A program made the position numbers and the translations under genes. From Martelella sp. NC20 (GTDB lineage Bacteria > Pseudomonadota > Alphaproteobacteria > Rhizobiales > Rhizobiaceae): DNA of 64,000 nt. Shown one piece after another: positions 23,175 through 41,136 of this stretch (the stretch's first letter is position 1; the number at the start of each line of letters is the position of its first letter). Where the stretch lies: assembly GCF_013459645.1 (NCBI RefSeq), contig NZ_CP054861.1, positions 980,001-1,044,000 on the forward strand. Reading direction: 5' to 3'. Below the pieces are notes generated by a model. That model had not been told where the DNA came from. It searched no databases and saw only the letters and a program-made list of their open reading frames with translations.

Positions 23175-23190
23175 TCAAACCGGCTTGTAG
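23146..23190. repeat. Three tandem 15-bp repeats across the ridA stop codon
   Basis: Units CAAACCGGCCCAAAT, CAAACCGGCCCCAAT and CAAACCGGCTTGTAG. The innermost encodes the last residues of RidA (YKPV) and the other two repeat its PV-stop sequence downstream, so they look like slippage duplications of the gene's 3' end. Confidence 0.8.
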
Positions 23191-23561
23191 GCCACCGCCT
23201 CGATCTCGACCAGGATATTGATCATCAGCCGCGCTTCGGTTGTCGAGCGGGCCGGGAATTTGCCCTGTTCGAAAAACGCCGAATAGGCCTTGTTGAACCG
23301 GGCGAAATCGCGGGCGTCGTGCAGCCACACCGTGGTCTTGCAGATATCGGAGAGTTCGCAGCCGGCCAGTTTCAGCGCTTCCTCGATATTGCGCATCACC
23401 TGCGCGGTCTGGGTCTCGACATCATGGGCCACGACCGAGCCATCGGCGAGCGTCGGCACCTGGCCGGACACGAACACGAAATCGCCGGCCCGGACGGCAG
23501 GGCTTAAGGGTGCGGGATTGCTGGCCCCGCCGGCTGCGTGAAGATGCTCGATCGTGCTCAT
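23175..23561 (-). CDS. RidA family enamine/imine deaminase
   Basis: 128-residue YjgF/YER057c/UK114 protein. RidA proteins hydrolyse reactive 2-aminoacrylate-type enamines made by PLP enzymes; specialised paralogues occur in catabolic clusters. FVFVSGQVPTLADGSVV, TAQVMRNIEEALKLAGCELSDI and the C-terminal FPARSTTEARLMINILVEIEAVA, with the conserved arginine in ARST, all match. ATG at 23561 (AAAGG upstream). Divergent from the SDR/D-threonine-aldolase-like pair, whose PLP enzyme could generate an enamine; that link is inference. Confidence 0.92.
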   Translation of the reverse strand: MSTIEHLHAAGGASNPAPLSPAVRAGDFVFVSGQVPTLADGSVVAHDVETQTAQVMRNIEEALKLAGCELSDICKTTVWLHDARDFARFNKAYSAFFEQGKFPARSTTEARLMINILVEIEAVAYKPV

Positions 23562-23741
23562 ATGATGTGGCCTTTCTCCGATGTGCAGAACGGGCCGAAG
23601 CCCCTGGCACAGTCCTGACACAAAAAACCTGCGCCACGCAACGCGGCAGCCTGTGTTCCCTCCGCCCCCAACGAAGACTTTCGCAGCGGCAATCCATCGG
23701 CTATGCATCGGTAAACCAACCCGAACCGGAAGGAAAACCGG

Positions 23742-24536
23742 ATGAAACGACTTGAAGGGCGGGTCGCGCTCGTCACGGGCGGCGTCGGCGGTGTCGGCAC
23801 GGCGGTTGTGAGGGATTTTCTGAACGAAGGCGCCGCCGTCATCATCTCGGATATCCGCGCCGACAAGGTGGAAGAAGCGGTCGCGGCTTTCCGGGCCGAG
23901 GGACACGCCGTCGCGGGCGCTGCGGCCAGCATCACCGATTATGACGCCTTCAAGGCTGCCGTCGACGCGGCGAGCGGCCCGCTTGGCCCGGTCGATATCG
24001 TCGTCGCCAATGCCTTTGTCGGCGGTGTCTCGCCAACGCTCGACAAGACCACGCCGGAGAGTTTCCGCCAGGATGTCGCCGACAATCTCGCCGGCACGTT
24101 CAACACCGTGCGCGCGGTGATCGACGGCATGAAGGCGGCCCGCCATGGCGCGATCGTGGTGATCGGCTCGGTCAACGGGTTGACCACGCTCGGCCAGCCG
24201 GCCTACAGCGCCGCCAAGGCCGGGCTTGAAAGCCTGACGCGCACCATGGCGACCGAATACGGCGCGCACAATATCCGCGCCAACATCATCTGCCCGGGCA
24301 CGGTGCGGACGCCGGCCTGGGATGCCCGGATCGCCCAGAAACCCGACGTGCTGGACGGACTGACCCGATGGTACCCGCTCGGCCGCGTCGCTACCCCCTG
24401 TGACATCGCAAAGGCCGTGACCTTCCTTGCCTCCGACGATGCCGGCTTCATCTCCGGCGTGACGCTGCCGGTCGATGGCGGCCTGATGGCCGGCAATCTG
24501 GCGATGGCGCGCGAACTGACGCTGGAAGATCGCTGA
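23742..24536 (+). CDS. SDR family NAD(P)-dependent oxidoreductase
   Basis: 264-residue classical short-chain dehydrogenase. Nucleotide motif TGGVGGVGTAVV (TGxxxGxG), NAG-like VANAFVGG, catalytic Ser in IGSVNGL and YSAAK (Tyr/Lys), followed by ICPGTVRTP and the C-terminal SGVTLPVDGGLMAG. GGAAGGA lies just before the ATG. Eleven bases separate it from the downstream PLP-enzyme gene, so they form an operon; oxidation of a beta-hydroxy amino acid or of the aldolase product would make sense but is unproven. Confidence 0.92.
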   Translation: MKRLEGRVALVTGGVGGVGTAVVRDFLNEGAAVIISDIRADKVEEAVAAFRAEGHAVAGAAASITDYDAFKAAVDAASGPLGPVDIVVANAFVGGVSPTLDKTTPESFRQDVADNLAGTFNTVRAVIDGMKAARHGAIVVIGSVNGLTTLGQPAYSAAKAGLESLTRTMATEYGAHNIRANIICPGTVRTPAWDARIAQKPDVLDGLTRWYPLGRVATPCDIAKAVTFLASDDAGFISGVTLPVDGGLMAGNLAMARELTLEDR

Positions 24537-24547
24537 AAGGAACCGAT

Positions 24548-25594
24548 GTGACGTTTGAAGACCTCCAAACCCCGGCGCCGCTTGTCGATCTTGCCGTGGT
24601 CGACGCCAATCTGAGGCGGATGCAGGATTATTGCGACCGCCACGGGATTGCGCTCCGGCCCCACATCAAGACCCACAAGAGCATTGCCATGGCCAGGCGC
24701 CAGCTGGCGCTGGGCGCGCGCGGCATCACCTGCCAGAAACTGGGCGAAGCCGAAGTGATGGCCGATGCCGGGATCGACGATATCCTGATTTCCTATCCGC
24801 TGATCGGCAAGCAGAAACGGCTCGCTTCCCTTGCCGCGCGGGTGAAGATGACGGTCGCGATCGACAGCGAAACGGCGCTCGCCAACGTCGCCGAGGCGGC
24901 CGCGATCGCCGGATACCCGATCGGCGTTCTCGTCGAATTCGACAGCGGCGCGAAACGCACTGGCGTGGTCCGGGTCGAGGATGCGCTGGCGCTCGCCCGC
25001 AAGATCATGGATACGCCGCAGCTGACCTTTGCCGGGCTGATGACCTATCCGGCAAACCGGCAGACCGTCGCCTTCGTCAACGCCGCCCGCGCAGCCTTCG
25101 ATGACGCAGGGATCGCGATCCCGATGGTTTCCGGCGGCGGCACGCCGGATGCGTTCAGCGTCCACGCGCTTGGCGTGATCGATGAGCTTCGGGTCGGGAC
25201 CTATATCTACAACGACCGGATGATGCTCGGCGCCGGCCATGCGAGCCTTGCCGATTGCGCATTCGATGTGATCGTCACCGTGGTCAGCCGCCCGGAGGAA
25301 AATCGCGCGGTCATCGATGCCGGTTCGAAATCGCTGACCAGCGATCCCGCCGGCAAGGGCGGTCCCGGCCATGGCCTGATCCGCGCCTATCCCGATGCCG
25401 TGATCGACCGGCTGAGCGAGGAACACGGCATGGTCGACCTGTCGAACTCGGCCGCCAAGCCCGAAATCGGCGAGCGGCTGCGGGTCGTGCCCAACCATGT
25501 CTGCCCGGTTACCAACCTGCATGATGCGATCTGGGTTATGGCCGATGGCGAGATCACCGAGTGGCCCGTGGATGCCCGGGGCCTGACGCGATAG
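24548..25594 (+). CDS. D-threonine aldolase / D-serine dehydratase-like PLP enzyme
   Basis: 348 residues, fold-type III (alanine-racemase-like) PLP enzyme. LRPHIKTHKSIAMAR carries the PLP lysine (Lys60 region), QKLGEAEVMADAGIDDILISYPLIG and VLVEFDSGAKRTGV follow; SGGGTPDAF is the phosphate-binding loop; the C-terminal PNHVCPVTNLHDAIWV contains the His/Cys metal ligands shared by D-threonine aldolase and DSD1. GTG start, 11 bp after the SDR stop. It should cleave or dehydrate a D-beta-hydroxy amino acid; aldolase versus dehydratase cannot be decided by eye. Confidence 0.88.
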   Translation: MTFEDLQTPAPLVDLAVVDANLRRMQDYCDRHGIALRPHIKTHKSIAMARRQLALGARGITCQKLGEAEVMADAGIDDILISYPLIGKQKRLASLAARVKMTVAIDSETALANVAEAAAIAGYPIGVLVEFDSGAKRTGVVRVEDALALARKIMDTPQLTFAGLMTYPANRQTVAFVNAARAAFDDAGIAIPMVSGGGTPDAFSVHALGVIDELRVGTYIYNDRMMLGAGHASLADCAFDVIVTVVSRPEENRAVIDAGSKSLTSDPAGKGGPGHGLIRAYPDAVIDRLSEEHGMVDLSNSAAKPEIGERLRVVPNHVCPVTNLHDAIWVMADGEITEWPVDARGLTR

Positions 25595-25671
25595 AGGAGT
25601 TCGCAATCAGGCGGAATCCAGTAAGCGCAAGTCCTTGAGCGCAAAAGCTCTTTACTCAGCTCACCACGTGT

Positions 25672-25705: not shown

Positions 25706-25757
25706 ATGGGCCTGGTAAGAACTTTGTCAACTGTCTGAGGCAGAAGCGCCAGAAGGC

Positions 25758-26468
25758 TCATACCATCGCCGCCTTCATCGCCCGGATCGCCGTGGCGTCG
25801 GTGCGCCCGGGCGCGGCGCTGTCAAATCCCTGGAGCTTCAATGCCTCGGCCTGATAGCGCGTCTTGCAGGAGGCGTGCAGTTCGCGCACGCCGGGGATCG
25901 CCAGAAACAGTTGGGCATTTTCGGCGTTGAGCCCGCCGCCCGGCATCAGCGAAATCCGTTCCCCTGCCGCCTCCGCCAATACCGCGATCAGATCGCGGCC
26001 CTCGCTGGCGCGCTGCTCCTGCCCGGAGGTCAGGATGCGCGGGATGCCGAGCGCGACCGCCGTTTCGAGGGCCGCGAACGGATCGCGGGTCAGGTCGAAG
26101 GCCCGGTGCAGGGTGATATCCATGCCCCTGGCCGCCCCGACAAGGGTCGCAAGGCCGTCCGCGTCGAGATCGTGATGGCGGTCGAGCGCGCCGATCACCA
26201 CGCCGGCAACACCCGCCCTCCGGCAAAAGGCGATATCGCGCAGCATCGTCTCGAATTCCCGCGCGGTATAGACGAAGCCGCCGGCGCGCGGGCGGATCAG
26301 GACGTGAACGGGCACCGGCGCTGCCGCCGCGACCTCGATCAGCCCGGCCGACGGTGTCAGCCCGCCCTGGTCGAGCGAGGCGCAAAGCTCGATCCGGTCG
26401 GCGCCGGCCTCCACCGCCGTTTCAAGCCCGCCGACATCGCCGACACAGATTTCGAGAAGCGTGGTCAT
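25758..26468 (-). CDS. cutC: CutC family protein
   Basis: 236-residue TIM-barrel protein of the CutC family. ICVGDVGGLETAVEAGADRIELCASLDQGGLTPS at the N-terminus, PVHVLIRPRAGGFVYT, LHRAFDLTRDP and LTSGQEQRASEG are family motifs. The family was named for copper tolerance in E. coli but its biochemical activity is unsettled, and barrel features suggest an enzyme on a small metabolite. Its ATG overlaps the MFS stop as ATGA; it is the last gene of the GH20-M81-MFS-cutC operon, which makes a sugar-related role at least as plausible as copper handling. Confidence 0.92.
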   Translation of the reverse strand: MTTLLEICVGDVGGLETAVEAGADRIELCASLDQGGLTPSAGLIEVAAAAPVPVHVLIRPRAGGFVYTAREFETMLRDIAFCRRAGVAGVVIGALDRHHDLDADGLATLVGAARGMDITLHRAFDLTRDPFAALETAVALGIPRILTSGQEQRASEGRDLIAVLAEAAGERISLMPGGGLNAENAQLFLAIPGVRELHASCKTRYQAEALKLQGFDSAAPGRTDATAIRAMKAAMV

Positions 26469-27688
26469 GAACGTCTCCGGTCGAGATAAAACACCAGCAG
26501 CCCGCCGGCAAAACCGGCGGCTGCGGAAAGGATAGCGGTTCCGGCGTAATCGGTCACCCTTGTGCCGAGCGCGAACTGCGCGGCCGCGATGCCGGCGCTG
26601 GCGAACATGTTGACCGAGATCAGCGAGGCGGCGAGGCCGGCCTTGTGGGCGATCAGGTTCTGCAGATAGGTCACCGGGATCGAGATGATCGCCGCCGCCC
26701 CGAGGCCGGCGATCCCGGTCAGCGCATAGGCCTGCCAGACCGCGGTGATATGGCCGAGCAGGAACAGATAGAGCGCGTAGATCACCGTACCGATAACGAA
26801 GATCGCAAGCTGCGGAACATAACGTTCGGCATAGCCCCAGCCGATGATGAACACGATCTCGAGGGCGGCGACGATGCCGACGAGCACGCCGACATCGGCA
26901 ACCGCGCCGCCGGCCTGATCGGTCACGATCAGCGGCAGCACCGCGGCGTTCATATGCAGCATGGCGGTGATCAGCGAGACCGCCAGCAGCCGCAGCCACA
27001 GGCCGCTGCCCGAAAACGCCGAGAACGCCCTGAAAAAGGGCTCCGTCGGCCGCACCCGGAGCGCCTTGTCCGGCTTTGCCATGCCGAAGGTAAACAGCAG
27101 AACGCAGACCAGGGCAGCGATGCCGGCGAACAGAAAGGCGGGCAGCATGTCGCGGCTTTCGGCGAGCGCGACGCCGACCACGCCCGGCACCAGCACCCAG
27201 GACAGCGACAGAACCGCCCTGACGCCGGAATTGATCGACGCCACTTCCGCCGAGGGGCGGTTTGCCGTTTCGGTGCGGACATTGGCGAACAGCAGCGGGT
27301 AGAGCGCCGTGAACAGCGGAATGAACATCACCTTCGCCAGCGCGAAGCTTGCGATCGAAGGCAGGAAATAGACGCCCGCGAAGCCCGCCACCCCCGCCAT
27401 GCCGCACAGAACCAGCGTCAGCCGGTAGCTGCCGAGCCGGTCGGTAAGGTTGCCGATCAGAACGCTTGCCGCCACCGAGATCAGCGCGCCCAGCGCCATC
27501 ACCAGCGCATAGGCCCGGTCGCTCATGCCGAGCTCCTGAATGCCGATGACCGAGAGATAGGGAGAGGTTGCAGCACCGGCGGTGCCAAAAAAGAAAATAC
27601 CCGCCGAGGAAATACGGATCGCCGGGTTTTTCAGGATGAGCGAGAATGTGTCGGGCATGAGCGTTTCGAGCCGTCGGAAAGGAGGCAT
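26465..27688 (-). CDS. MFS transporter, SetA/sugar-efflux-like
   Basis: 397-407 residues depending on start: ATG 27688 or ATG 27658 (MPDTFSLILKNPAIRIS); neither has a strong ribosome site. Twelve predicted helices; GALISVAASVLIGNLTDRLGSYRLTL is the MFS loop 2-3 motif and LLFANVRTETANRPSAEVASINSGVRAVLSLSWVLVPGVVGVAL resembles the SetA sugar-efflux group. It lies between the M81 gene (45 bp upstream) and cutC (4-bp overlap). Presumably moves the sugar or conjugate handled by the GH20 enzyme; import versus export is unclear. Confidence 0.86.
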   Translation of the reverse strand: MPPFRRLETLMPDTFSLILKNPAIRISSAGIFFFGTAGAATSPYLSVIGIQELGMSDRAYALVMALGALISVAASVLIGNLTDRLGSYRLTLVLCGMAGVAGFAGVYFLPSIASFALAKVMFIPLFTALYPLLFANVRTETANRPSAEVASINSGVRAVLSLSWVLVPGVVGVALAESRDMLPAFLFAGIAALVCVLLFTFGMAKPDKALRVRPTEPFFRAFSAFSGSGLWLRLLAVSLITAMLHMNAAVLPLIVTDQAGGAVADVGVLVGIVAALEIVFIIGWGYAERYVPQLAIFVIGTVIYALYLFLLGHITAVWQAYALTGIAGLGAAAIISIPVTYLQNLIAHKAGLAASLISVNMFASAGIAAAQFALGTRVTDYAGTAILSAAAGFAGGLLVFYLDRRRS

Positions 27689-27733: not shown

Positions 27734-29197
27734 TCACGCGCCGGCATCATGCGCCGCTCCCCACCGCTTCGAGGGGCGCGGTTTCGGCACATAGCCGAAA
27801 TCGCGCTGGAACGGATAGCATGGCGTGTGCCGCCTGAGATTGGGCAGGGACGCGATATCCTGATTGACGGCCCCATCGGTGAGCGCCATCAGGTTCGGGT
27901 TGGCGATGGGTGCCAACGCGGGCGACAGATAGCCGGACTTGACCACCAGCAGCCGCACCGCCTTCGGATCGAGCCCGAGCCGGGAAAAATCCTCGATAGT
28001 GTGGTAGGGACGCCGTCTTGCGGAAAGCACGATGGTGATGCCGCCGGCCACGACCACGGCCTGCCGCTCGTCGTCGCCTGCCGGATCATCGAGGCGGATA
28101 ATCCTGGCTGTCGCGGTCGCCGAAGGGCTATTTTCATCGAGCGTTCCGCCGATGAACAGGTCGAGGACCGCGCCTTCGCCGGCCGCAAAGCACTCTTCCA
28201 CGGCAGGACGGTCGGCAATGCCGGCGATCAGGGCATCGTCGAAACCGCGTTCGATCAGCGCCACCAGCACATCGGCGCGGTCGCCAACGCCGCCGCCGGT
28301 GGGATTGTCGCCGGAATCGGCAAGGATGACCGGTTTCGTGTCCGCCTTTTCCGCAATGTCGAGCATCTCGTCCAGCGGCCCCGTAACGGGCCCGAAGGAA
28401 AAATCGTCGCGGGCGTTCCAGTAGGACAGCGCGATTTCCGCCGCCGCCTTTTCCGCCGCGACCCAATCGGTCGCCGTCACCACGGCGCAAGCGGTTGCGC
28501 GCGGCTCGTCGGCCCAGACATAGCCGACCATCAGATTGGCGTCCCATATGCCCTCGCGGGCGTCGATCTCGGGAAGCCCGCGGTAGAGCGAGGCGGCTGG
28601 CTCGTCCTCGGTCGAGGTCCGCTCGCCCGGCAGCAGCACCGGAACGGGCGCCCAGATCACGCCGGGGCGGACCCCGGCTTCCAGCGCTTTCACCAGCATC
28701 GAATATGCCCTGACCATGGTCTCGCGCACATCGATATGCGGCGCGGTGCGATAGCCGGCGAATATGTCGATCCGGTCGATGATCGTCTGGCTGACATTGC
28801 CGTGGAGATCGTAGGAGACGGCGATCGGGCAATCCTCGCCCACCGTTTCGCGCGCCGCCGAGATCCAGTCAGCCTCGGCATCGTCCATGCCTTCGACATT
28901 CATCGCGCCATGCATGGCGAGATAGAGCCCGTCGAGCGGCAGGCTTGCCTGCAACCGCTCCAGGAAATCGGCCTTGAAGGCCTGATAGGTTTTGGCCGAG
29001 ACCGGGCCGCCGGGCACGGCGCGAGCATGGAGCAGCGGCAGGATTTCGACATTGCCCGCGTCCCGCAGGAAGCTGAAATAATCTGCCTGCGCCAGGTCGT
29101 CTCCGGCGAGAACCCGGAAATTTTCCGCCTGCATCAGCGCCGGGTTGCCGGTTGAACACTCGGTGTGGATACCGCCGACGGCGATCCTGAATGTCAT
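27734..29197 (-). CDS. M81 family metallopeptidase (MlrC-like), copy 1
   Basis: 487 residues. MlrC in sphingomonads opens linear microcystin peptides; most homologues have no known substrate. N-terminal M81 domain: IAVGGIHTECSTGN, YLAMHGAMNVEGMDDAEADW, YDLHGN (Asp130, His132) and YRTAPHIDVRETM (His154) supply the expected zinc ligands. C-terminal MlrC domain: LADSGDNPTGGGVGDRADVL (293-310). No signal peptide, so cytoplasmic. ATG at 29197 is 7 bp past the GH20 stop, with GAGG overlapping that stop, so the two are coupled. A divergent second copy lies at 32762-34258. Confidence 0.92.
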   Translation of the reverse strand: MTFRIAVGGIHTECSTGNPALMQAENFRVLAGDDLAQADYFSFLRDAGNVEILPLLHARAVPGGPVSAKTYQAFKADFLERLQASLPLDGLYLAMHGAMNVEGMDDAEADWISAARETVGEDCPIAVSYDLHGNVSQTIIDRIDIFAGYRTAPHIDVRETMVRAYSMLVKALEAGVRPGVIWAPVPVLLPGERTSTEDEPAASLYRGLPEIDAREGIWDANLMVGYVWADEPRATACAVVTATDWVAAEKAAAEIALSYWNARDDFSFGPVTGPLDEMLDIAEKADTKPVILADSGDNPTGGGVGDRADVLVALIERGFDDALIAGIADRPAVEECFAAGEGAVLDLFIGGTLDENSPSATATARIIRLDDPAGDDERQAVVVAGGITIVLSARRRPYHTIEDFSRLGLDPKAVRLLVVKSGYLSPALAPIANPNLMALTDGAVNQDIASLPNLRRHTPCYPFQRDFGYVPKPRPSKRWGAAHDAGA

Positions 29198-29204
29198 GAT
29201 GGCC

Positions 29205-32250: not shown

Positions 32251-32727
32251 ATGCGTGATCCTTTCGCCAACCCTTTCTCCGACCAAGACCGGCGCGCGAT
32301 CTGGGACATGCTGGTGCCGCGCGATATCGACGCCTTTCTCGCCGCCGACTGGTCGATGGTCGCCGATGATTTCGTCACGATCGGTTTCTTCGCGATCGAT
32401 GCCGGAAAGAACAGGCATCCGGACGACTGGCGGCTCGGCTTCCCCGATCTCGATCATTACCGCGATGAATGGCTGCGCCAGGCGCGGGCATTCGCCAGCG
32501 GCCAATATGCCGACGATCCGCGCGCCGCGATCTTCAACGCCACACGACTGGAACAGATCGAGATTTCCGGCGACGGCGCGCTGGTGCGCAAGAAATTCGA
32601 TGGCGGCATCAAACGGGCCGATGGCGGATTTGACAGCATGAACTGGCAGACGCTTTATTACTGTCGGCGCGAGGACGGCCGCTGGAAGATCGCCGGCTTT
32701 ACCGGCTACCTGCCGCATCCGTTTTGA
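32251..32727 (+). CDS. SnoaL/NTF2-like hypothetical protein
   Basis: 158 residues without a signal peptide. Length and the pattern of a helical N-terminus (DIDAFLAADWSMVADDFV) followed by strands ending in WKIAGFTGYLPHPF resemble the NTF2/SnoaL-like fold, which includes small isomerases, cyclases and hydrolases as well as binding proteins. No catalytic motif can be assigned. It lies 34 bp upstream of the second M81 gene and divergent from the RpiR gene, so the two proteins probably act together. Function unknown. Confidence 0.75.
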   Translation: MRDPFANPFSDQDRRAIWDMLVPRDIDAFLAADWSMVADDFVTIGFFAIDAGKNRHPDDWRLGFPDLDHYRDEWLRQARAFASGQYADDPRAAIFNATRLEQIEISGDGALVRKKFDGGIKRADGGFDSMNWQTLYYCRREDGRWKIAGFTGYLPHPF

Positions 32728-32761: not shown

Positions 32762-34258
32762 ATGCGGATATTCACGGCGGCGCTGGCAACCGAGTCCAAC
32801 ACGTTCTCGCCGATCTGCATCGATCGCTCGGCCTTCATCGCCTCGTTTTACGCCCCGCCCGGCCAACATCCGGCAACGCCGACGCTCTGCACCGCGCCGA
32901 TCACGGTCGGCCGCGCGTTTGCGCGTGCGCGGAATTTCGAGCTGATCGAGGGCAGCGCCGCCTGGGCCGATCCCGCCGGCCTTGTCAACCGCCAGGCCTA
33001 TGAGGGCCTGCGCGACGAAATCCTCGATCAGTTGAAGGCCGCCCTGCCGGTCGATGCCGTGGTGCTTGGCCTGCACGGGGCGATGGTGGCCGCCGGCTAC
33101 CCCGATCCCGAGGGCGATCTGCTGTCGCGCATAAGGGACATGGTCGGGCCGGACGTGCTGGTCTGCGCCGAGCTCGACCCGCACAGCCACCTGACCGCCA
33201 AACGGGTGGCGGCCGCCGATTTCTTCGTCGCCTTCAAGGAATTCCCCCATACCGATTTCGTCGAGCGCGCGGGCGATCTGTGGCGGATCGCGCTCGATAC
33301 GCTGGAAGGCCGGGTGAAGCCGGTGATGTCGGTGTTCGACTGTCGCATGATCGACGTCTATCCGACCTCGCGCGATCCGATGCGCGGCTTCGTCGACCGG
33401 CTGATCTCGCTGGAAAAGGCTGATCCGGATATCCTGTCGCTGTCGGTGATCCACGGCTTCATGGCGGGCGACGTGCCGGAAATGGGCACGAAAATGATCG
33501 CGGTCACCAATGGCAATCCGGCAAAGGGTGCCCGGCTGGCGCGCGAACTCGGCATGGCGCTTTTCGAAAAGCGCGGCACCTTCCGCATGCCGGAGATCGA
33601 CGAGCGCCAGGCCGTGCGCCAGGCGCTGCGTTCGGAAAACCATCCCGTGGTGATCGCCGATATGTGGGACAATCCCGGCGGCGGCACGGCGGGCGACGCC
33701 ACTGTGGTGCTGGCCGAACTGCTGCGCCAGGGTGCGACCAATACCGCGGTCGGCACGATCTGGGATCCGGTCGCCGTCAGCATCGCCATGGCCGCCGGCG
33801 AAGGCGCGGAGATCCCGCTGCGCATCGGGGCGAAATCGGCGCCGGGCACCGGCGCGCCGATCGATGGCATCGTCCGGGTCGAAAACATCAACCCGCACGC
33901 CGAAATGCGCTTCGGCGACAGTATCGTGCCGTTCGGCCCGGCGGTGACGGTGAGGCTCGACGGCATCGAGATCATCCTCAACACCGTGCGCGCGCAAAGC
34001 TACGACCCCTCGCTGTTCTCAGTGATGGGGATCGATCCGCTCAAAAAGGACATTCTGGTCATCAAATCGACCAATCATTTCCACGCGGCGTTCTCGCGGA
34101 TTTCCAGAGAGATCATCTACTGCTCGGCCGGTACGCCCTATCCCAACAATCCCGCGCTCACCGCCTATAAGCACGCGCCACGCGACATCTGGCCGATGGC
34201 GGACGATCCGCATGGGCTCGGCGCGGCGGAGGCCAGTGTCGGTTCGGGCGAAGCGTGA
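32762..34258 (+). CDS. M81 family metallopeptidase (MlrC-like), copy 2
   Basis: 498 residues; ALATESNTFSPI opens the M81 domain, then VLGLHGAMVAAGYPDPEGDLL, ELDPHSHLT (Asp139, His141) and FKEFPHTDFVERA (His163) give the zinc site, and IADMWDNPGGGTAGDATVVL (299-317) marks the C-terminal MlrC domain. No signal peptide. It is only distantly similar to copy 1 at 27734-29197: the motif order is the same but residues between motifs differ widely, so this is not a recent duplication. GGGAGGAACGGAAA precedes the ATG. Convergent with the SDR-ligase operon. Confidence 0.92.
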   Translation: MRIFTAALATESNTFSPICIDRSAFIASFYAPPGQHPATPTLCTAPITVGRAFARARNFELIEGSAAWADPAGLVNRQAYEGLRDEILDQLKAALPVDAVVLGLHGAMVAAGYPDPEGDLLSRIRDMVGPDVLVCAELDPHSHLTAKRVAAADFFVAFKEFPHTDFVERAGDLWRIALDTLEGRVKPVMSVFDCRMIDVYPTSRDPMRGFVDRLISLEKADPDILSLSVIHGFMAGDVPEMGTKMIAVTNGNPAKGARLARELGMALFEKRGTFRMPEIDERQAVRQALRSENHPVVIADMWDNPGGGTAGDATVVLAELLRQGATNTAVGTIWDPVAVSIAMAAGEGAEIPLRIGAKSAPGTGAPIDGIVRVENINPHAEMRFGDSIVPFGPAVTVRLDGIEIILNTVRAQSYDPSLFSVMGIDPLKKDILVIKSTNHFHAAFSRISREIIYCSAGTPYPNNPALTAYKHAPRDIWPMADDPHGLGAAEASVGSGEA

Positions 34259-34455: not shown

Positions 34456-35211
34456 CTACAGATGCCTGCCCTCATCGACCGGGACGACGATGCCGGTGGA
34501 ACTCGTCAGCAGGCAGGCGCAGGCGATGATTGCCCGGGCGACATCGTCCGGCGTGGTGATCCTGGCAAGCGGCAGCGTTTTTGCCATCGCCTCCAGCCGT
34601 TCGCGCGGGCGGCCCGGCACGAAACCGGTATCGACCCCGGCGGGCGAGACCGAGAACACCCGGATTTCCGGCGCGAGCGCCTTGGCAAGGCCGATGGTGA
34701 GCGAATCGAGCCCGGCCTTGGCCGCGCAATAGGCAAGGTTGCTGCCCACCCCGGTGCGCGCCGCAATCGAGGACACGTTGACGACGGCTGCGTCTTTCCC
34801 GCGCGACAGAAGCGGGCGGAAGGCGCGGACCATGGCGAACGGGCCGCGCAGGTTCACCTGCGTGATCCGGTCGAACAACTCGTCGGTGAGCCCGTCGAGA
34901 TCACCCGCCGGCACGACTTCGGTGGCGCCGCCATTGTTGACCAGCAGGTCGATTGCGCCGAAATGCGCCTCCACGTCGGCGGCGGCCTCCGCGATACTGT
35001 CGGCCTCCTCGATTGCGATCCGGAGCGCCATGTGACCCTCGCCCGGCAGGGACGCCGCCAGCGCTTCGGCCTTTTCGCGATTGCCGTGAAAGCCGATCAC
35101 GATCGTCGCGCCCAGCGCCGCCAGCCGCTCCGCGGTCGCCCGGCCGATGCCGCCGCTGGCCCCGGTGATGACGGCGACGCGGGGACGGACCGGCAATGTG
35201 TCGTCGCTCAT
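34456..35211 (-). CDS. SDR family oxidoreductase
   Basis: 251-residue short-chain dehydrogenase: VITGASGGIGRATAERL, LVNNGGATEV (NNG), catalytic VNVSSIAARTG and YCAAKAGLDSLT, then VSPAGVDTGFVPG and the C-terminal end SSTGIVVPVDEGRHL. The ATG overlaps the ligase stop as ATGA. Last gene of the operon that starts with the DUF6282 gene; with an acyl-CoA ligase and a MaoC hydratase it could be the 3-hydroxyacyl-CoA dehydrogenase step (inference). Confidence 0.92.
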   Translation of the reverse strand: MSDDTLPVRPRVAVITGASGGIGRATAERLAALGATIVIGFHGNREKAEALAASLPGEGHMALRIAIEEADSIAEAAADVEAHFGAIDLLVNNGGATEVVPAGDLDGLTDELFDRITQVNLRGPFAMVRAFRPLLSRGKDAAVVNVSSIAARTGVGSNLAYCAAKAGLDSLTIGLAKALAPEIRVFSVSPAGVDTGFVPGRPRERLEAMAKTLPLARITTPDDVARAIIACACLLTSSTGIVVPVDEGRHL

Positions 35212-36722
35212 GCACGCTTCTCCCAATAGGGTTTCCTGAGTTCCTGCTTCAGCACCTTGCCGCCCGAATTGCGCGGCAGCGCATCGCGGATTTCGACGGC
35301 GGCAATCTTCTGCATCCGTCCGAGCCGTTGGTTGACCCAGTCGCGGAGCGCCTGCGGTTCGAGCGCCGCGCCATTCTTCGCAACCACGAAGCCGAGCGGC
35401 GTCTCGCCCCATTTGTCGCTCGGGATCGCGATCACGGCGGCTTCCAGCACGCCGGGATGGGAAAGCAGTTTCTCTTCCAGATCCGAGGCGTAGATGTTGA
35501 AGCCGCCGGAAATGATCATGTCCTTCTTGCGGTCGAGCAGGACCAGGAACCCGTCTTCGTCGAACATGCCGATATCGCCGGTGCGGTGATAGAGCGTGCC
35601 GTCGCGATCGTGCCAGTAGAAGGCGCGGTTGGCCTCGTCATTGCGGAAATAGCCGGACATCATCATCGCCGAGCGGCCGATGATCTCGCCGCGTTCGCCT
35701 TGTCTGACGTCGTTGCCATCGTCGTCTATGATGCGGATCGTGTTGCCGGCGGCGGGTTTTCCCACGGTATGGGCCTTGTCGGGATGGCGCGCGGCATCGA
35801 GGATCGCGGTGCAGCCGCCCTCCGTCAGCCCGTAGACCTCGAAGAAATCGCCCGGCCAATGATCGAGGATCGCGCGCTTGGCGGCGGCCGGCAGCGGCGC
35901 GCCGGTGCTCTGCTTGACCCTGAAGGCGGAGAGATCGCGTTTGCCGAAACTGTCTGCCGCGAGGATGCGCTGGTATTGTACCGGCACCAGCATGGTGTGG
36001 GTAGCGCCGAGGCTTTCGGCGAGTTCGAGGTACCGTTCGGCGTCGAATTTCTGCATCAGCGCCACGCGGGCCCCGTGATGGAGCGCCGACAGCATCGGCA
36101 TCAGCGTGGTGTTGGAATAAAGCGGGGTGGCGAGCAGCATGGTGGAGCCGGCGTCGAGCCCGAACAGCGTGCGCGCCGCCTGGCGGTAGCGCATCCGGTG
36201 GGGATGGACGATGCCCTTGGCCCGCCCGGTCGTGCCGGAGGAATAGATGATGTTGAACGGCGCATCGGGATCGGCGGTGACGGGCGCGGCAAGGGGCGGC
36301 GCCTCGTTGCGGAAGTCCGCCGGCACGCTGCCCGCCACATCGGCATCGAGCCGGACGACGCGCCCGGCATAGGCCTCGGGCACCAACCCGGCATAGCCCT
36401 CCTCAACGAACACCAGCGCCGGCTCGCAATCGGCCAACATGCCGGCAAGTGCATCGGGATGGGCCGAGGCCGGCAGCGGCACGGCGCATCCGCCGGCGGC
36501 GATGATGGCGAGATAGGCGGTGACGAGCCCGATATCGGCCGTGCCCAGAAGCGCGACCCGACCAACATCGCCATGAGCCGAAAGCGCGCCTGCTGTTGCC
36601 AGAACATCGCCCCGCAACTGCCCCCAGCTTGCGGTCTCGCCATTGCAGATAAGCGCCGTATCCTCCGGCCGGGTGTCGGCATGGCCAAGAATTGCGGCGA
36701 TCAGTCCGCCTTCCTCGCTCAT
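35208..36722 (-). CDS. AMP-dependent acyl-CoA synthetase/ligase
   Basis: 504-residue ANL-superfamily enzyme that activates a carboxylic acid as acyl-AMP and then acyl-CoA. P-loop NIIYSSGTTGRAKGIVHPH, EVYGLTEGG (A5), YHRTGDIGMFDEDGF (A7), DRKKDMIISGGFNIYASDLEE (A8) and PRNSGGKVLKQEL with the catalytic Lys (A10) are complete. Overlaps the genes on both sides by 4 bp. The acid specificity is not readable from sequence; the overall type resembles cyclohexanecarboxylate or aryl/medium-chain ligases. Confidence 0.93.
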   Translation of the reverse strand: MSEEGGLIAAILGHADTRPEDTALICNGETASWGQLRGDVLATAGALSAHGDVGRVALLGTADIGLVTAYLAIIAAGGCAVPLPASAHPDALAGMLADCEPALVFVEEGYAGLVPEAYAGRVVRLDADVAGSVPADFRNEAPPLAAPVTADPDAPFNIIYSSGTTGRAKGIVHPHRMRYRQAARTLFGLDAGSTMLLATPLYSNTTLMPMLSALHHGARVALMQKFDAERYLELAESLGATHTMLVPVQYQRILAADSFGKRDLSAFRVKQSTGAPLPAAAKRAILDHWPGDFFEVYGLTEGGCTAILDAARHPDKAHTVGKPAAGNTIRIIDDDGNDVRQGERGEIIGRSAMMMSGYFRNDEANRAFYWHDRDGTLYHRTGDIGMFDEDGFLVLLDRKKDMIISGGFNIYASDLEEKLLSHPGVLEAAVIAIPSDKWGETPLGFVVAKNGAALEPQALRDWVNQRLGRMQKIAAVEIRDALPRNSGGKVLKQELRKPYWEKRA

Positions 36723-37192
36723 GCGCCCTCCCCCGCCGGGTCTTCGATCAGCAGGATATGGCGCGCGACGATCGCCGGGCGCTCTGCCCCCTCAAGCTCG
36801 ATCACCGTGTCGTTGACGATCCTCGTGCCCTTCGGATGCGCCTCGGCTTCCACCAGCGTCAGCGCCAGCCGGATGCGGCTACCGACCGGCACCGGCATCA
36901 CGAAGCGCATCCGGTCATAGCCGTAGTTGAGCCCGCGCCCGCGATGTTCGATCCGGTAGATATCGCGCTGCAGGTGGGGCATCAGGCTGACGAGATAGAG
37001 ACCGTGGGCGATGGTCTTGCCGCCCGGCATCTCCCGGGCCGCGCGATCGACATCGACATGGATCCAGTGGTCGTCGCCGGTCAGCCGCGCGAACTCCGAA
37101 ATCGCGTCTTGTGTCACCGCCACCCATTCGGAATGGCCGAGCCGTTCCCCGGCATGGTCTGCAAGATCGCGAGCATGATCGACCGTGAGCAT
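36719..37192 (-). CDS. MaoC family dehydratase (R-hydratase-like)
   Basis: 157-residue single hot-dog protein. The hydratase-2 signature is DDHWIHVDVDRAAREMPGGKTIAHGLYLVSLMPHL, with the Asp/His dyad in D-D-H-W-I-H and GKTIAHG. It would hydrate an enoyl-CoA or dehydrate a 3-hydroxyacyl-CoA made after the adjacent ligase. ATG directly adjoins the stop of the quinone-oxidoreductase gene and the 3' end overlaps the ligase start by 4 bp. Confidence 0.92.
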   Translation of the reverse strand: MLTVDHARDLADHAGERLGHSEWVAVTQDAISEFARLTGDDHWIHVDVDRAAREMPGGKTIAHGLYLVSLMPHLQRDIYRIEHRGRGLNYGYDRMRFVMPVPVGSRIRLALTLVEAEAHPKGTRIVNDTVIELEGAERPAIVARHILLIEDPAGEGA

Positions 37193-38208
37193 CAGTTTTC
37201 TCCTCTTTCGAACGGCGCCGTTGCGGCGCGGGCCCCATCAATGGCGAGCACGACCTTGCCGATCTGTTCATTGCTGTCCATCAGTTCATGGGCGGCGCGG
37301 ACATCATCGAAGGCGAAGACCTTGTGGATGCGGGTGCGGATTTCGCCGCTTTCGAGAAGCGGCCAGACGTCGCGCATCAGCTCGGCCGCGATCCGGCCCT
37401 TGTATTCGGCGGTGCGCGGGCGCAGCGTCGAGCCGGTCAGCGTCAGCCGGCGGCGCACGATCGCGCGGATATTGACCTCGGCCGTCTCGCCCTGGTGGCT
37501 GGCGATGAACACCAACCGGCCATCGGGCCTGAGAAGATCGAGCTGTTTCTGCGTATAGGACCCGGCCTGGGCATCGAGAATGACGTCGAAGCCGTCGGTG
37601 AGCGCGCGCAACTCTTCGGCCCAGTCGCCGCGATAGCTGACGGCATGCTGCGCGCCGATCTCTTCGCAGACGGCCAGTTTTTCCGCGCTGCCGGCGGTGG
37701 CGAACACGGTGGCATTGCGGAGCTTGCGGGCAATCTGGATCGCCGCCATGCCGACGCCGCTGGTGCCGCCCTGCACCAGCAGGCTTTCGCCGTCCGCCAG
37801 CCGGGCGAGCCAGATGACATTGTTCCAGGCGGTGAAATAGACCTCCGGCAGCGAGGCCGCCTCGATGAAGGTCAGGCCGCGCGGCACCGTCATGCATTGC
37901 AGCGCCGGAACGGTGCAGAACTCGGCATAGCCGCCGCCATTGACGAGCGCTGAGACGGGATCGCCGACGCTGAGGCCGGTAACGCCTTCACCGATGGCGG
38001 CAATCTCGCCTGCGACATCCAGCCCCGGGATCGGCGAGGCGTCGGGCGGCGGCGGATAGAGGCCGCGCCGCTGCTGGACATCCGGCCGGTTGACCCCGGC
38101 CGCGATTACCCGGATCAGCACCTCGCCGGGTTTCGGTTGAGGCTCCGGCCCGTCGACGATCGCGAGCACCTCCGGTCCCCCGGCGCCCTTTATTTCCACC
38201 AGCCGCAT
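37192..38208 (-). CDS. NAD(P)H-quinone oxidoreductase, PIG3-like zinc-free MDR
   Basis: 338-residue medium-chain dehydrogenase/reductase. VIAAGVNRPDVQQRRGLYPPPPDASPIPGLDVAGEI is the PIG3/quinone reductase signature; the catalytic-zinc cysteine of alcohol dehydrogenases is absent. The NAD(P) motif is LLVQGGTSGVGMAAIQIARKL. The C-terminus LMDSNEQIGKVVLAIDG matches. In a CoA-dependent pathway this group may reduce an enone or enoyl-CoA (inference). Operon neighbours abut on one side and leave 46 bp to the FAH gene on the other. Confidence 0.92.
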   Translation of the reverse strand: MRLVEIKGAGGPEVLAIVDGPEPQPKPGEVLIRVIAAGVNRPDVQQRRGLYPPPPDASPIPGLDVAGEIAAIGEGVTGLSVGDPVSALVNGGGYAEFCTVPALQCMTVPRGLTFIEAASLPEVYFTAWNNVIWLARLADGESLLVQGGTSGVGMAAIQIARKLRNATVFATAGSAEKLAVCEEIGAQHAVSYRGDWAEELRALTDGFDVILDAQAGSYTQKQLDLLRPDGRLVFIASHQGETAEVNIRAIVRRRLTLTGSTLRPRTAEYKGRIAAELMRDVWPLLESGEIRTRIHKVFAFDDVRAAHELMDSNEQIGKVVLAIDGARAATAPFERGEN

Positions 38209-38254
38209 TCCGGCCTCCTCCCGGCATCGACCGCTGGCCGATGCGTTTGTCAGA

Positions 38255-39232
38255 TCATTTCCAGTCGTGCACGACGGGGTTCGACAATCTGCCGAGACCC
38301 TCGATCTCGATATCGATCACGCCCGAAAGCTTGTGCATATTGACCGAACGATGGCCATTGGGGAAGTTGCCGACGCCCTTGGCCGAGGTGCCGAAGCAGA
38401 TGATGTCGCCGGGCTCCAGCGTGAAATAGCGGCTCGCCTCCGCGATCACCTCCGCGACCTTGAAACGGTAGCTCGCCGTCGAATCGACCGCGAACGGCTC
38501 GCCGTCGAACCAGCCCTTGACCTCCAGCGCGTCAGGGTTTGAAACCGCGTCGGCGGTGGTGATCCACGGTCCCATCGGGCCGAACGTGTCGGTCGCCTTG
38601 GAGCGGGTGTGGTAGACGAAATAGACGTCGTTGTCGTCCTCGCCCTTGCGGTTGCGCCATGCCAGATGATGCGGGCGGATCAGCTCCTTCTCGCGCGTGG
38701 TGGCGATCGAATCGAGGCCGAATTTCAGGCCATGCGAGGTGACGTCATTGGTGATGGTGAAGCCGAAGATCGCGTCCTTGGCTTCCTCCACGGAGATTTT
38801 CCGGCAGCGCTTGCCGATCACGGCGGCAAGCTCCAGTTCCGGAATGGTCTCGCCGAAATGCTCTTCCATGATCACCGGCTTGTTGTGGCCGGTCAGGCAC
38901 GACGGCGCCTTCAGGAAGAAATTCGGGACGCCCGGATCGCGATGCGCGGATTTGCGGATGCCCATATTGTTGAAGGCAACGCCGAGCACCTTGGTCGGGC
39001 GCGGCTGCGGCGGCAGCCAGTCGAGCGTGGCCTCATCGAGCGGCGCGGCGGTGCCCTTGTCGAAGGCGTCACGCACTTCCGCCAGCCTGCCATCCTCGAT
39101 CAGATCGAGCATCGAACGGGGCGCATCGCCGAGGCCGGCGCTGGCATAGAGTTCGGACAGAAGCACGGGCCTGCCGTCCTTCTCGGCGACCAGCGCCGGG
39201 CGTCCCTGATGATTGATCATTCCTAGTTTCAA
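38255..39232 (-). CDS. Fumarylacetoacetate hydrolase (FAH) family protein
   Basis: 325 residues. FAH-fold enzymes cleave or hydrate acylpyruvates and related diketo acids with a divalent metal. The metal site is visible as IPELELAAVIG (two Glu) and FGFTITNDVTSHG (Asp); AFNNMGIRKSAHRDPGVPNFFLKAPSCLTGHNKPV precedes them. C-terminal FTLEPGDIICFGTSAKGVGNF is the usual end of the barrel. Within a ligase/hydratase operon it is the likely C-C bond cleaving or ring-derived keto-acid step. No signal peptide. Confidence 0.92.
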   Translation of the reverse strand: MKLGMINHQGRPALVAEKDGRPVLLSELYASAGLGDAPRSMLDLIEDGRLAEVRDAFDKGTAAPLDEATLDWLPPQPRPTKVLGVAFNNMGIRKSAHRDPGVPNFFLKAPSCLTGHNKPVIMEEHFGETIPELELAAVIGKRCRKISVEEAKDAIFGFTITNDVTSHGLKFGLDSIATTREKELIRPHHLAWRNRKGEDDNDVYFVYHTRSKATDTFGPMGPWITTADAVSNPDALEVKGWFDGEPFAVDSTASYRFKVAEVIAEASRYFTLEPGDIICFGTSAKGVGNFPNGHRSVNMHKLSGVIDIEIEGLGRLSNPVVHDWK

Positions 39233-39310
39233 GGTAGTCTCCTGCTGTTCGGGCGGGCTTCATGTCGGTTTTCGTGTCTCGGCGCCCGTCCGGCACACGG
39301 AGAAAGGGTT

Positions 39311-40249
39311 TCAGTCGAGGCCGACGAGCTTCGCCGAATTGTCGCGGACCATCACGCGCACATCCGCCTCGGAAAAGCCGAGCGCGAGCAGCAGCTTGAT
39401 CGCCTGGCGCATGCCTTCGACCGGCGACGGGTTATCGACCTGTCCAAGGTCGGAGCCGATCGAGGAATGCTCGACGCCGGCGGCCAGGATGTGCTCCTTC
39501 AGTTCGTCCGGCGAGAACACGTTGAAGCGCGAATCCACATAGAGGCAGGCCGACTGCTCGATCAGCGCGCCGAACCGGGCAAGCTCGGTGATGTCCTGAT
39601 AGGTGAAGTGCAGGCCATACATCGGATGGTTGACCAGAAGCCGCTTGACGCCGCGCTTCTTCGCCTCCTCGAACAGTTTCCAGATCTCGTAGACGTGGAG
39701 ATGGCCCGACGACAGGATCGCGTCGAAGGCGGCGATCGAATCGAGGATCTCCTTGACCACGTCGAGAATGTCGCCATAGGCGTCGAGCACGGTGATGCCC
39801 GGTGACTTCTTGAGCTGGACGTTGGAGGCAAGCCGCGACTTGCGGTGGGAGGAGCGGATGTGGTTGGCCGATTGCGCCGTCGGCATCCAGACGAGCTTTG
39901 CGCCCTGGTTGAGCTGGGCGTCGACCACGAAGGGGTTCAGCCCGCCGGTGGTGTTGTTCAGCACCAGCCCGCCATACATCGCCACGTTCAGATGGCCGAG
40001 CACCCGTTCCATGATCGGCAGGAAGGGTGCTACGGAATAGTGATGATCCTTGAACATGATGCCGCGCATGCCGGCGGCCGCCGCCTGTTCCACGGCCTGG
40101 AAATGATCGAGCTGGCGCGCCATCGTCGAGGGGCCGGAATGGACGTGCAGATCCACCGCCCCCTTCATCAGCCCGTCGACGACGCCGTCATCGATCGTTG
40201 CCATCAGCGCGCGCGCCTTCTCCCTGTTGTCCGCCCCGACGTCTGCCAT
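39311..40249 (-). CDS. DUF6282 family protein, amidohydrolase-like
   Basis: 312 residues, cytoplasmic. GAVDLHVHSGPSTMARQLDHFQAVEQAAAAGMRGIMFKDHH gives a DxHxH metal motif followed by a conserved KDHH; later LSSGHLHVYEIW, LLVNHPMYGLHFTYQDI and SSIGSDLGQVDNPSPVEGM supply more His/Asp. The layout is that of PHP or amidohydrolase metal-dependent hydrolases, and I recognise it as DUF6282, which to my knowledge has no characterised member. First gene of the six-gene operon and divergent from the IclR regulator. ATG preceded by AAGGAG. Confidence 0.85.
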   Translation of the reverse strand: MADVGADNREKARALMATIDDGVVDGLMKGAVDLHVHSGPSTMARQLDHFQAVEQAAAAGMRGIMFKDHHYSVAPFLPIMERVLGHLNVAMYGGLVLNNTTGGLNPFVVDAQLNQGAKLVWMPTAQSANHIRSSHRKSRLASNVQLKKSPGITVLDAYGDILDVVKEILDSIAAFDAILSSGHLHVYEIWKLFEEAKKRGVKRLLVNHPMYGLHFTYQDITELARFGALIEQSACLYVDSRFNVFSPDELKEHILAAGVEHSSIGSDLGQVDNPSPVEGMRQAIKLLLALGFSEADVRVMVRDNSAKLVGLD

Positions 40250-40286
40250 GCCATTCTCCTTGTCTCACTGGAAAAAGGTATAGGGC

Positions 40287-40315
40287 TTGACAATTTGCGC
40301 CGACAACGTGCAAAC
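40287..40315 (+). promoter_or_regulatory. Candidate promoter of the IclR gene
   Basis: TTGACA at 40287-40292 with a 17-bp spacer to GCAAAC, a weak -10. It points at the regulator gene and sits in the 104-bp divergent gap to the DUF6282 operon. Confidence 0.4.
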
Positions 40316-40321
40316 CCCACC

Positions 40322-40340
40322 CGTTTCGACAGACGAAACG
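40322..40340. promoter_or_regulatory. Inverted repeat, candidate IclR operator
   Basis: CGTTTCG, ACAGA, CGAAACG: perfect 7-nt arms with a 5-nt centre, 13 bp before the regulator's GTG. IclR-family regulators often bind such short palindromes between divergent genes, so it may serve both promoters. Confidence 0.55.
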
Positions 40341-40353
40341 CCGGGAGGACAAG

Positions 40354-41136
40354 GTGAGCATTCGTTCGATAGAGCGCGGACTGCGCGTGCTGCAGGAAAT
40401 GAACCTGCAGCCTTATACATCCATCGCCAGCCTTCATGAGCGCACCGGGCTACCGAAGCCGACGCTGGTCAGGATCCTGAAGACGCTGGAACAGGCCGGC
40501 TATGTGGAAAACGATCCGCGCGTCGGCGGCTATCAGCTGAGCGCGCTGGTGGCCTCGCTCAGTTCCGGCTACCACAAGGAGCCGATGGTGGTGGAGGCAG
40601 GCCGCCCCTGGGCCGTGGCCGTCACCCGCAAATATCAGTGGCCGGTCTCGATCGCGCTCTTGGACCGCGATGCCGTGGTGGTGCGGTTTTCGACCGTGCC
40701 GGACAGTTCGGTCTCGCCGTTCCACAAGACCGTCAACATGCGCCTGCCGCTGATCACCCGCGGCCTCGGACTTGCCTATGTCGCCTTTGCCGAGGAGGAG
40801 GAACTGGTGCTGATCCTGCGCATGCTGCAGATGTCGGACGACCCCGAAAACGAGCTTGCCCGCAACCCGGAAAAAATGGCGCGGCTGATCGCGATGACCA
40901 AGGCGCGCGGCTATGCCACCCGCGCCACCCATGTCGAGCCGCGCAACTCCGATACCATCGCCGTGCCCGTGTTCAACGACGCCGGCCGCGTGGTCGCAAG
41001 CCTCGGCCTCACCTATTTCCGCTCCGCCTTCTCCTCCCAGCGCGAAGCCTGCGAACGCTACGCCCCGGTCCTGAAATCCGCCTCGAAGGAGATCACGCGG
41101 GATCTGACGCGGTTGAAGAGCAGTGCTTTGGTTTGA
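40354..41136 (+). CDS. IclR family transcriptional regulator
   Basis: 260 residues: N-terminal winged helix (SIERGLRVLQEMN; IASLHERTGLPKPTLVRILKTLEQAGYV) and a C-terminal effector domain with MRLPLITRGLGLAYVAF and GYATRATHVEPRNSDTIAVPVFN. GTG start with GGGAGGA upstream. Divergent from the DUF6282-FAH-QOR-MaoC-ligase-SDR operon, which it most likely controls in response to a pathway acid. Confidence 0.93.
   Translation: MSIRSIERGLRVLQEMNLQPYTSIASLHERTGLPKPTLVRILKTLEQAGYVENDPRVGGYQLSALVASLSSGYHKEPMVVEAGRPWAVAVTRKYQWPVSIALLDRDAVVVRFSTVPDSSVSPFHKTVNMRLPLITRGLGLAYVAFAEEEELVLILRMLQMSDDPENELARNPEKMARLIAMTKARGYATRATHVEPRNSDTIAVPVFNDAGRVVASLGLTYFRSAFSSQREACERYAPVLKSASKEITRDLTRLKSSALV

Follow-up and report, generated by a model that had tools for sequence, protein, structure and literature searches.

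The gene block at positions 23175–41136 of a 64,000-nt stretch of DNA from Martelella sp. NC20 (Rhizobiaceae; the whole stretch is hereafter called the window) brings together enzymes that may break down an oxidized amino sugar. We divide the block into unit 1 (RidA, the short-chain dehydrogenase SDR1, and a pyridoxal phosphate (PLP) enzyme), unit 2 (from CutC to the second M81 protein, M81b), and unit 3 (from SDR2 to DUF6282, plus a divergent IclR regulator). The genes of units 1 and 2 correspond to a module that recurs in Alphaproteobacteria, associated above chance. We put at roughly one in two the probability that they serve the catabolism of an oxidized N-acetylhexosamine (HexNAc) by an ong-like route, in which M81 metallo-amidases would replace the deacetylase OngB. 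Unit 3 is an independent catabolic unit, a separate insertion outside the pathway.

Genes of units 1 and 2

The features of the first two units are, in order:

23175–23561, minus strand: RidA, of the imine/enamine deaminase family; start probably at ATG 23561; NCBIfam TIGR00004 at 97.6 bits, below the cut-off of 106.25
23742–24536, plus strand: SDR1, short-chain dehydrogenase; PRK07074 ranks first among NCBIfam models, at a score under its cut-off
24548–25594, plus strand: fold-III PLP enzyme, D-serine dehydratase/D-threonine aldolase superfamily; PF01168 and PF14031 (Ala_racemase_N and D-ser_dehydrat)
25758–26468, minus strand: CutC family TIM-barrel protein; PF03932, 232 bits; 4-base overlap with the transporter gene that follows
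26465–27688, minus strand: major facilitator superfamily (MFS) transporter; weak match to a sugar-efflux subfamily; the first ATG is at 27688, and 27658 is a possible start
27734–29197, minus strand: M81a, metallopeptidase-family protein; PF07364, 311 bits, and PF07171, 157 bits
29205–31136, minus strand: GH20 beta-N-acetylhexosaminidase; PF00728, 367 bits
31188–32087, minus strand: RpiR/MurR-type regulator carrying a SIS domain; HexR is the nearest NCBIfam model, its cut-off not being reached
32251–32727, plus strand: NTF2/SnoaL-like protein, by predicted fold; in 70 of 70 long-flank GH20 loci
32762–34258, plus strand: M81b, MlrC-like; the M81 version that adjoins the PLP enzyme in relatives

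The genes named in the first-pass annotation of this DNA are borne out by Pfam and NCBIfam, here RidA, SDR, PLP enzyme, CutC, MFS, the two M81 proteins, GH20, and RpiR/SIS. The SnoaL label found no Pfam or NCBIfam match, but the predicted model of the protein, built from a 27-row alignment, falls among NTF2/SnoaL folds (predicted local distance difference test (pLDDT) 93). RidA, SDR, and PLP enzyme are there as named, with the correction that RidA lies on the minus strand, divergent from the plus-strand pair of SDR1 and PLP enzyme. The open frames of CutC and M81a were initially too long at the 5' end, and their likely ATG starts are 26468 and 29197, respectively. The SDR of the rhizobial locus L052 likewise has PRK07074 as its top NCBIfam model. 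In the GH20 protein, Asp452-Glu453 lies in the catalytic motif; this motif is conserved relative to the closest solved structure, Nag2 (6ezr), and no signal peptide was seen when the sequence was inspected by eye.

A recurring alphaproteobacterial module

Homologs of the window GH20 were sought in genome contigs. From the best 80 of 211 loci, 77 are alphaproteobacterial by title, and 70 of these have long flanks; the seven shorter ones were left out. The 70 loci are skewed to Rhizobiaceae and are not independent, and gene presence was scored by tblastn with identity floors of our own choosing. Among the best 80, the closest named GH20 relative is that of Martelella mediterranea IOP_24 (89% identity). 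RpiR, the SnoaL-like protein, and GH20 occur in all 70 loci, followed by M81a (69), MFS (66), SDR (63), CutC (60), RidA (55), M81b (54), and the PLP enzyme (53). PLP enzyme and RidA are both present in 52 loci and both absent from 14, leaving four with one alone. An ATP-binding cassette (ABC) operon for sugars, represented by at least three of its five genes, is found in 62/70 loci; its solute-binding protein gives weak matches to UgpB/MalE/NgcE-type models, below their cut-offs.

The common gene order is PLP enzyme, M81b, and SnoaL-like protein in one direction, followed by RidA, RpiR, SDR, GH20, M81a, MFS, and CutC in the other, with the sugar ABC operon toward the PLP-enzyme end. The genes of units 1 and 2 are thus interleaved in most loci. 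The idea of the first-pass annotation that HexNAc removal, amide opening by M81, and an enzyme for D-beta-hydroxy-amino acids belong together agrees with this finding, as the genes occur together in relatives. The co-occurrence that it proposed to look for among related genomes is seen for the genes of units 1 and 2, but not for unit 3, which is present in one locus of the 70.

Some loci depart from the common plan or add to it. Rhodobacteraceae-type loci (L059, L060, L066, and L076) are without M81b and SDR at the chosen floors, and RidA and NagB are present. A Gfo/Idh/MocA dehydrogenase (L041:1827-3008 and its equivalents) heads the sugar ABC operon; it was seen in 20/70 loci, many stretches ending before its position. 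The other recurring flanking clusters that were scanned (EAL/GGDEF, DUF922, thiolase, CoA transferases, IclR, glycosyltransferases, and oligopeptide-type permeases) are clade-bound and have no evident link to the module.

Likeness to the ong pathway

Judged by its genes, the closest known system to units 1 and 2 is the ong pathway, which uses N-acetylglucosaminate from oxidized chitin. The ong cluster of Pseudoalteromonas prydzensis serves oxidative chitin use (Jiang 2022, PMC9537276). In that organism, the D-aminoacylase OngB deacetylates GlcNAc1A, after which OngC deaminates the product to 2-keto-3-deoxygluconate (KDG), and the RidA protein OngD is essential, its role being given as not known. 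The cluster also holds the GH20 OngA, KdgK, a MurR/RpiR regulator, and transporters, and OngC accepts D-serine and D-threonine as well (PMC9537276).

What the two loci have in common are the RpiR regulator, GH20, RidA, and a PLP enzyme of the D-serine dehydratase/D-threonine aldolase fold. The window GH20 has the PF00728 domain and the catalytic motif, and a periplasmic signal as in OngA was not seen by eye. RpiR and RidA are both present, RidA slightly under its subfamily cut-off. The PLP enzyme, a candidate counterpart of OngC, shares its superfamily and has a dehydratase metal pair.

There are differences, too. The window locus has M81 instead of OngB, and a sugar ABC or MFS system in place of the sodium:solute symporter (SSS) and TonB receptors: among the locus genes, there is neither an SSS inner-membrane nor a TonB outer-membrane transporter. 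It has an extra SDR, CutC, and SnoaL-like protein, and a GH20 without a visible signal peptide. No OngB-type D-aminoacylase is found among the locus genes, and the whole genome gives only weak, partial matches to the Azospirillum D-aminoacylase (best E 7e-8). Because OngB is absent, we rejected membership and did not file the locus as an ong cluster; by analogy, it would work like ong without being ong.

Further components were looked for in the NC20 genome. There is no KDG kinase in the window cluster, and a candidate elsewhere in the genome is 51% identical to a Paracoccus kinase. At C1:1275065, ~264 kb away, the genome encodes an ABC solute-binding protein that shares 59% identity with the locus-type one. 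A close NagB of the L076 kind was not found in the genome (best 28%, E 1.8e-4; NagB-II and NagA were not searched for).

The M81 proteins as candidate deacetylases

Both window M81 proteins have both Pfam domains and the Asp/His/His zinc ligands of M81 metallopeptidases, which alignment places at Asp130, His132, and His154 in M81a and at Asp139, His141, and His163 in M81b (one row of the alignment, a third M81 of the same genome entered with an open-frame prefix, is misaligned). These ligands are essential in MlrC, the best-characterized M81 member, which is a peptidase (PMC4810221, PMC12474180); the family is mostly known from the breakdown of the cyanobacterial toxin microcystin. With OngB missing, M81 is the candidate deacetylase, and it probably strips the acetyl group from an oxidized amino sugar.

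M81b does resemble the microcystinase MlrC in aligning over nearly its full length and in keeping the ligands. However, the two window proteins score 361.3 and 135.8 bits against an NCBIfam microcystinase cut-off of 999, and their neighbors are of amino-sugar type; we rejected MlrC membership on these scores. The literature searched yielded no published link of M81 to amino sugars, nothing on CutC, hexosaminidase, M81, and RpiR together, and nothing under the term "glucosaminate dehydratase."

A dehydratase-type metal site in the PLP enzyme

The first-pass annotation had called the PLP enzyme D-threonine-aldolase-like, and its residues speak otherwise. In an alignment with 4v15, 7dib, 6qkb, and 3wqc, the metal pair of the window enzyme is His317/Cys319, which takes the place of His347/Asp349 of D-threonine aldolase and aligns with the His/Cys pair of a dehydratase. 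His347 and Asp349 are the metal ligands of the Alcaligenes D-threonine aldolase; serine dehydratase binds the metal via His and Cys and is without the base His193 (PMC4401734). By residue count, the His193 position lies in a six-residue stretch that has no counterpart in the window enzyme. The His-x-Cys motif recurs in 62/63 related rows (one genome is counted twice), the remaining row ending before the site. Because of the His/Cys pair and the absent His193 stretch, the aligned residues identify the enzyme as dehydratase type, not aldolase type, at its metal site, with the metal pair of a D-serine or D-hydroxy-amino-acid dehydratase.

Two more specific identities were considered. The D-threonine aldolase of Alcaligenes xylosoxidans (4v15) belongs to the same PLP family and is the best solved match by sequence, but it has His/Asp where the window enzyme has His/Cys, and the window enzyme is missing the stretch with the catalytic His193, so that this activity was rejected. 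3-Hydroxy-D-aspartate aldolase BhcC shares the superfamily (210 bits); the window enzyme, with its His/Cys pair, falls far under the equivalog cut-off of 690, and this identity was rejected too.

Linkage of M81 and PLP enzyme outside GH20 loci

The association of M81 with the PLP enzyme also extends beyond GH20. We sampled 121 genomes, our own included, for M81 (PF07364) and the PLP enzyme (PF14031), finding M81 in 58, the PF14031 enzyme in 73, and both in 45. In 12 of these 45 (16 of 90 M81 genes), an M81 gene lies <10 kb from a PF14031 gene, where ~0.5 pairs would be expected for 5-Mb genomes and random placement. Three of the 12 genomes are Martelella and nine are others. One of the nine, G029 (L157), has a full GH20 locus; the remaining eight loci carry RidA (8/8), SDR, RpiR, the SnoaL-like protein, and sugar ABC genes (6 each), and GH20 (1). 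Among these eight, L183 is almost the same sequence as the Nitratireductor query.

Plasmid and other gene contexts were picked by hand from ranked or spread lists (18 regions, one without annotation). The M81b gene overlaps that of the PLP enzyme or directly adjoins it in Peteryoungia, Paracoccus, Phaeobacter, and R. phaseoli. Plasmids of Paracoccus and Phaeobacter (Rhodobacterales) hold genes for RpiR, RidA, and a tripartite ATP-independent periplasmic (TRAP) transporter, an M81 gene that overlaps that of the PLP enzyme, and a sugar kinase gene; for the two kinases, the best models are those of KDG kinases (239 and 172 bits, below the cut-offs of 400). The Nitratireductor locus reads M81–RidA–permease–permease–binding protein, divergent from SDR–UgpC–RpiR–PLP enzyme. 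In Azospirillum, D-aminoacylase, RidA, and PLP enzyme stand in a row with dipeptide ABC genes, and two M81 loci carry an ABC system of unstated type.

Sinorhizobium meliloti has GH20–M81a–SDR–RpiR–RidA–SnoaL–M81b, with the PLP enzyme ~126 kb off in strain GR4. Growth of S. meliloti on D-glucosaminic acid is listed in Table 2 of PMC4207669, and E. aridi is recorded as using D-glucosaminate; both are recorded at the level of the organism.

A possible route

The likeliest substrate would be N-acetyl-D-glucosaminate, either as the free acid or as the terminal unit of a chito-disaccharide. It may be imported by the sugar ABC transporter, which lies beside the locus in relatives and whose binding protein is encoded elsewhere in NC20, or by the MFS protein. 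GH20, probably cytoplasmic, would cleave off the beta-HexNAc, as its family function and catalytic motif suggest, and the SDR may oxidize the freed HexNAc at C1. M81, chiefly M81b, would then take off the N-acetyl group to give a 2-amino-2-deoxy-aldonate, namely a D-beta-hydroxy-amino acid. The PLP enzyme, with its dehydratase-type metal site, could dehydrate this presumed substrate, and RidA would clear the resulting imine, yielding KDG and ammonia. The KDG-kinase-like protein elsewhere in the genome could convert KDG to 2-keto-3-deoxy-6-phosphogluconate (KDPG), and RpiR, related to HexR, may sense a sugar phosphate. CutC, the SnoaL-like protein, and M81a belong to the module by their conservation, with no step assigned to them.

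A broader version of this reading is speculative, and we regard it as quite doubtful. It holds that alphaproteobacterial M81 proteins are largely N-deacylases for oxidized amino sugars, serving a nonphosphorylating route that would replace NagA/NagB and need no lytic polysaccharide monooxygenase (LPMO), and that CutC is an enzyme of this route, not a copper protein. In it, HexNAc would be oxidized by the SDR to N-acetylhexosaminate, deacylated by M81 to hexosaminate, and converted to KDG by the D-serine-dehydratase-type enzyme and RidA.

Several findings weigh against the ong-like reading of units 1 and 2. Window-type unit 1 lies away from GH20, or occurs without it, in 8/11 of the Martelella genomes that have it, and the window trio is not orthologous to the in-locus trio of other loci (PLP enzyme 47–51%, SDR 34–52%, and RidA 34–50% identical). 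The PLP enzyme is absent from 17/70 loci while M81a is in 69/70, so that M81a does not require the PLP branch; Agrobacterium-type loci are also without RidA and M81b. M81 stands without PLP enzyme or RidA nearby in Paracoccus denitrificans, Pantoea, and Cetobacterium. Genes annotated as dipeptide ABC transporters adjoin two PLP-enzyme homologs, and oligopeptide-type permeases lie further out in 12 of the clustered loci. R. aethiopicum is negative for D-glucosaminate oxidation (PMC5278577), again recorded at the level of the organism. The NC20 genome has 0 matches to PF03067 (LPMO_10), the family of AA10 LPMO, and none to GH18; by these two families, it does not itself make oxidized chitin. Finally, the substrate is not fixed by the sequence.

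Alternative readings

The juxtaposition of the two units may be accidental, with the window unit 1 serving a D-hydroxy-amino-acid or sugar-acid pathway of its own and only unit 2 representing the conserved GH20 locus. We consider this rather unlikely. The window-type PLP enzyme occurs in 11/13 Martelella genomes and GH20 in 6/13, and the two are neighbors in just three (G000, G001, and G006), which favors accident, as does the phylogeny: the M81-partnered PLP enzymes of the rhizobial loci, Nitratireductor, Paracoccus, and Phaeobacter form one clade (support 96/99), and the window enzyme clusters apart from them with other Martelella enzymes and one Agrobacterium plasmid copy (96/89), in a tree for which the program warned of long branches. 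The first-pass annotation had held that separate occurrence of the units in relatives would count against their linkage, and for window unit 1 this is in part what the genus shows.

The accidental reading also draws on six other Martelella, in which the PLP enzyme has a home locus of its own. There, PLP enzyme–UgpC–SDR diverge from binding protein–permease–permease–RidA, and in 6/6 of these loci, RidA is followed by an amidohydrolase (91–100% identical to that of G011) and then CutC. The two amidohydrolases scanned with NCBIfam pass its "amidohydrolase/deacetylase" model (405 vs 371). The same gene content tells on the other side too: a locus that holds a sugar ABC system, RidA, a deacetylase-type amidohydrolase, and CutC makes the two pathways look chemically alike. 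The transporter genes and RidA of Nitratireductor are 58–62% identical to those of G011, with M81 in the position of the Martelella amidohydrolase, but L180, one of the eight loci outside Martelella described above, has a Martelella-type amidohydrolase in addition to M81; this makes a simple exchange of one for the other less likely and is a further point against the ong-like reading.

Against accident, the three opened Martelella GH20 loci without the window trio (L153, L155, and L156; genomes G005, G007, and G012) have retained the ABC operon, and the sequence retrieved around them shows neither RidA nor SDR nor a PLP enzyme, so that the neighboring unit 1 would supply functions that most other loci hold inside. 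The window lineage thus has a second, equivalent, separately inherited trio beside a GH20 locus that lacks the usual one, and the ABC operon is no longer adjacent.

Two side observations concern these loci. In other Martelella, an uncharacterized protein of ~407 aa (L162:906-2129, minus strand) is encoded in the window-type locus between the SDR gene and that of the binding protein; the one that was scanned gave no Pfam match. CutC is a repeated member of GH20 loci (60/70) and also stands beside the amidohydrolase of the separate Martelella locus (6/6; L161–L166), which argues that its function is metabolic and not one of handling copper.

The first-pass annotation had suggested a glyco-peptide conjugate. 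In such a glycopeptide or muropeptide breakdown, M81 would be a true peptidase and the PLP enzyme would act on D-serine or D-threonine. That MlrC is a peptidase, that OngC itself takes D-serine and D-threonine, and that dipeptide-type ABC genes and oligopeptide-type permeases are found in the places given above all fit this. However, the partners that recur are mainly RpiR and importers of the sugar ABC or TRAP type, joined in two loci by a KDG-kinase-like kinase, for which pyruvate or oxobutyrate would have no need, and no peptidase was found among the 17 scanned representatives (besides NagB) of the recurring flanking clusters. A peptide substrate is therefore very unlikely in our estimate.

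Unit 3 and its surroundings

The features of the third unit are:

34456–35211, minus strand: SDR2
35208–36722, minus strand: AMP-ligase
36719–37192, minus strand: MaoC
37192–38208, minus strand: quinone oxidoreductase
38255–39232, minus strand: FAH
39311–40249, minus strand: DUF6282
40354–41136, plus strand: IclR-type regulator, divergent from the rest of the unit

Pfam and NCBIfam confirm all of these families. The block is followed by a HigB/HigA-like pair, tRNA-Thr, and GTP cyclohydrolase I.

Compared with its close relative G006 (L154), the window aligns at 22.0–34.3 kb and, inverted, at 42.1–46.2 kb, both at 86–93%; 34.3–42.0 kb is absent from the relative's stretch. From this gap, together with the presence of unit 3 in one of the 70 GH20 loci, we judge it a separate insertion. 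DUF6282 is also 90% identical in Martelella AD-3, a genome without a GH20 match. In three other records that were opened, DUF6282 stands with TRAP importers and variously with MaoC and ligase, fumarate hydratase, or FAH and quinone oxidoreductase, and no GH20 is annotated around it. That all three units form one pathway, in which unit 3 degrades the acyl part of a conjugate, is scarcely credible and was rejected as a conserved link, since the adjacency of the units in the window and in L004 is set against the G006 gap, the single locus in 70, and the DUF6282 neighborhoods without GH20. The acyl part proposed in the first-pass annotation falls with it, and its "three regulated units back to back" describe the map correctly, but the histories of the three differ.

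DUF6282 is not named in any paper of the literature searched. Its predicted model (pLDDT 79) bears a loose likeness to amidohydrolase/phosphotriesterase barrels (template modeling (TM) score up to ~0.6), and many His/Asp residues are invariant, in a set 75–96% identical.

The toxin–antitoxin-like HigB/HigA pair (Gp49 and a helix-turn-helix protein; 41247–41971) lies between unit 3 and tRNA-Thr and is missing along with unit 3 in G006. The segment 42064–46185, with tRNA-Thr, is inverted in G006; as this inversion stands beside the gap, the two share a breakpoint region. An integrative island ending at tRNA-Thr was considered and rejected, as the window has no second copy of the last 14–38 bases of the tRNA. 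A 64-base stretch at 61433–61496 has an 83% match in L154 and L004, in the spacer that separates the RpiR and SnoaL-like genes, and is possibly a repeat element.

Implications

If the ong-like reading of units 1 and 2 is true, M81 proteins, found in 58/121 genomes sampled, would gain a physiological substrate, and a locus common to many rhizobia, including S. meliloti, would be explained. RidA and CutC would be tied to a concrete pathway, and the use of oxidized amino sugars would no longer be confined to Gammaproteobacteria of the sea but would include Alphaproteobacteria, both marine and plant-associated.

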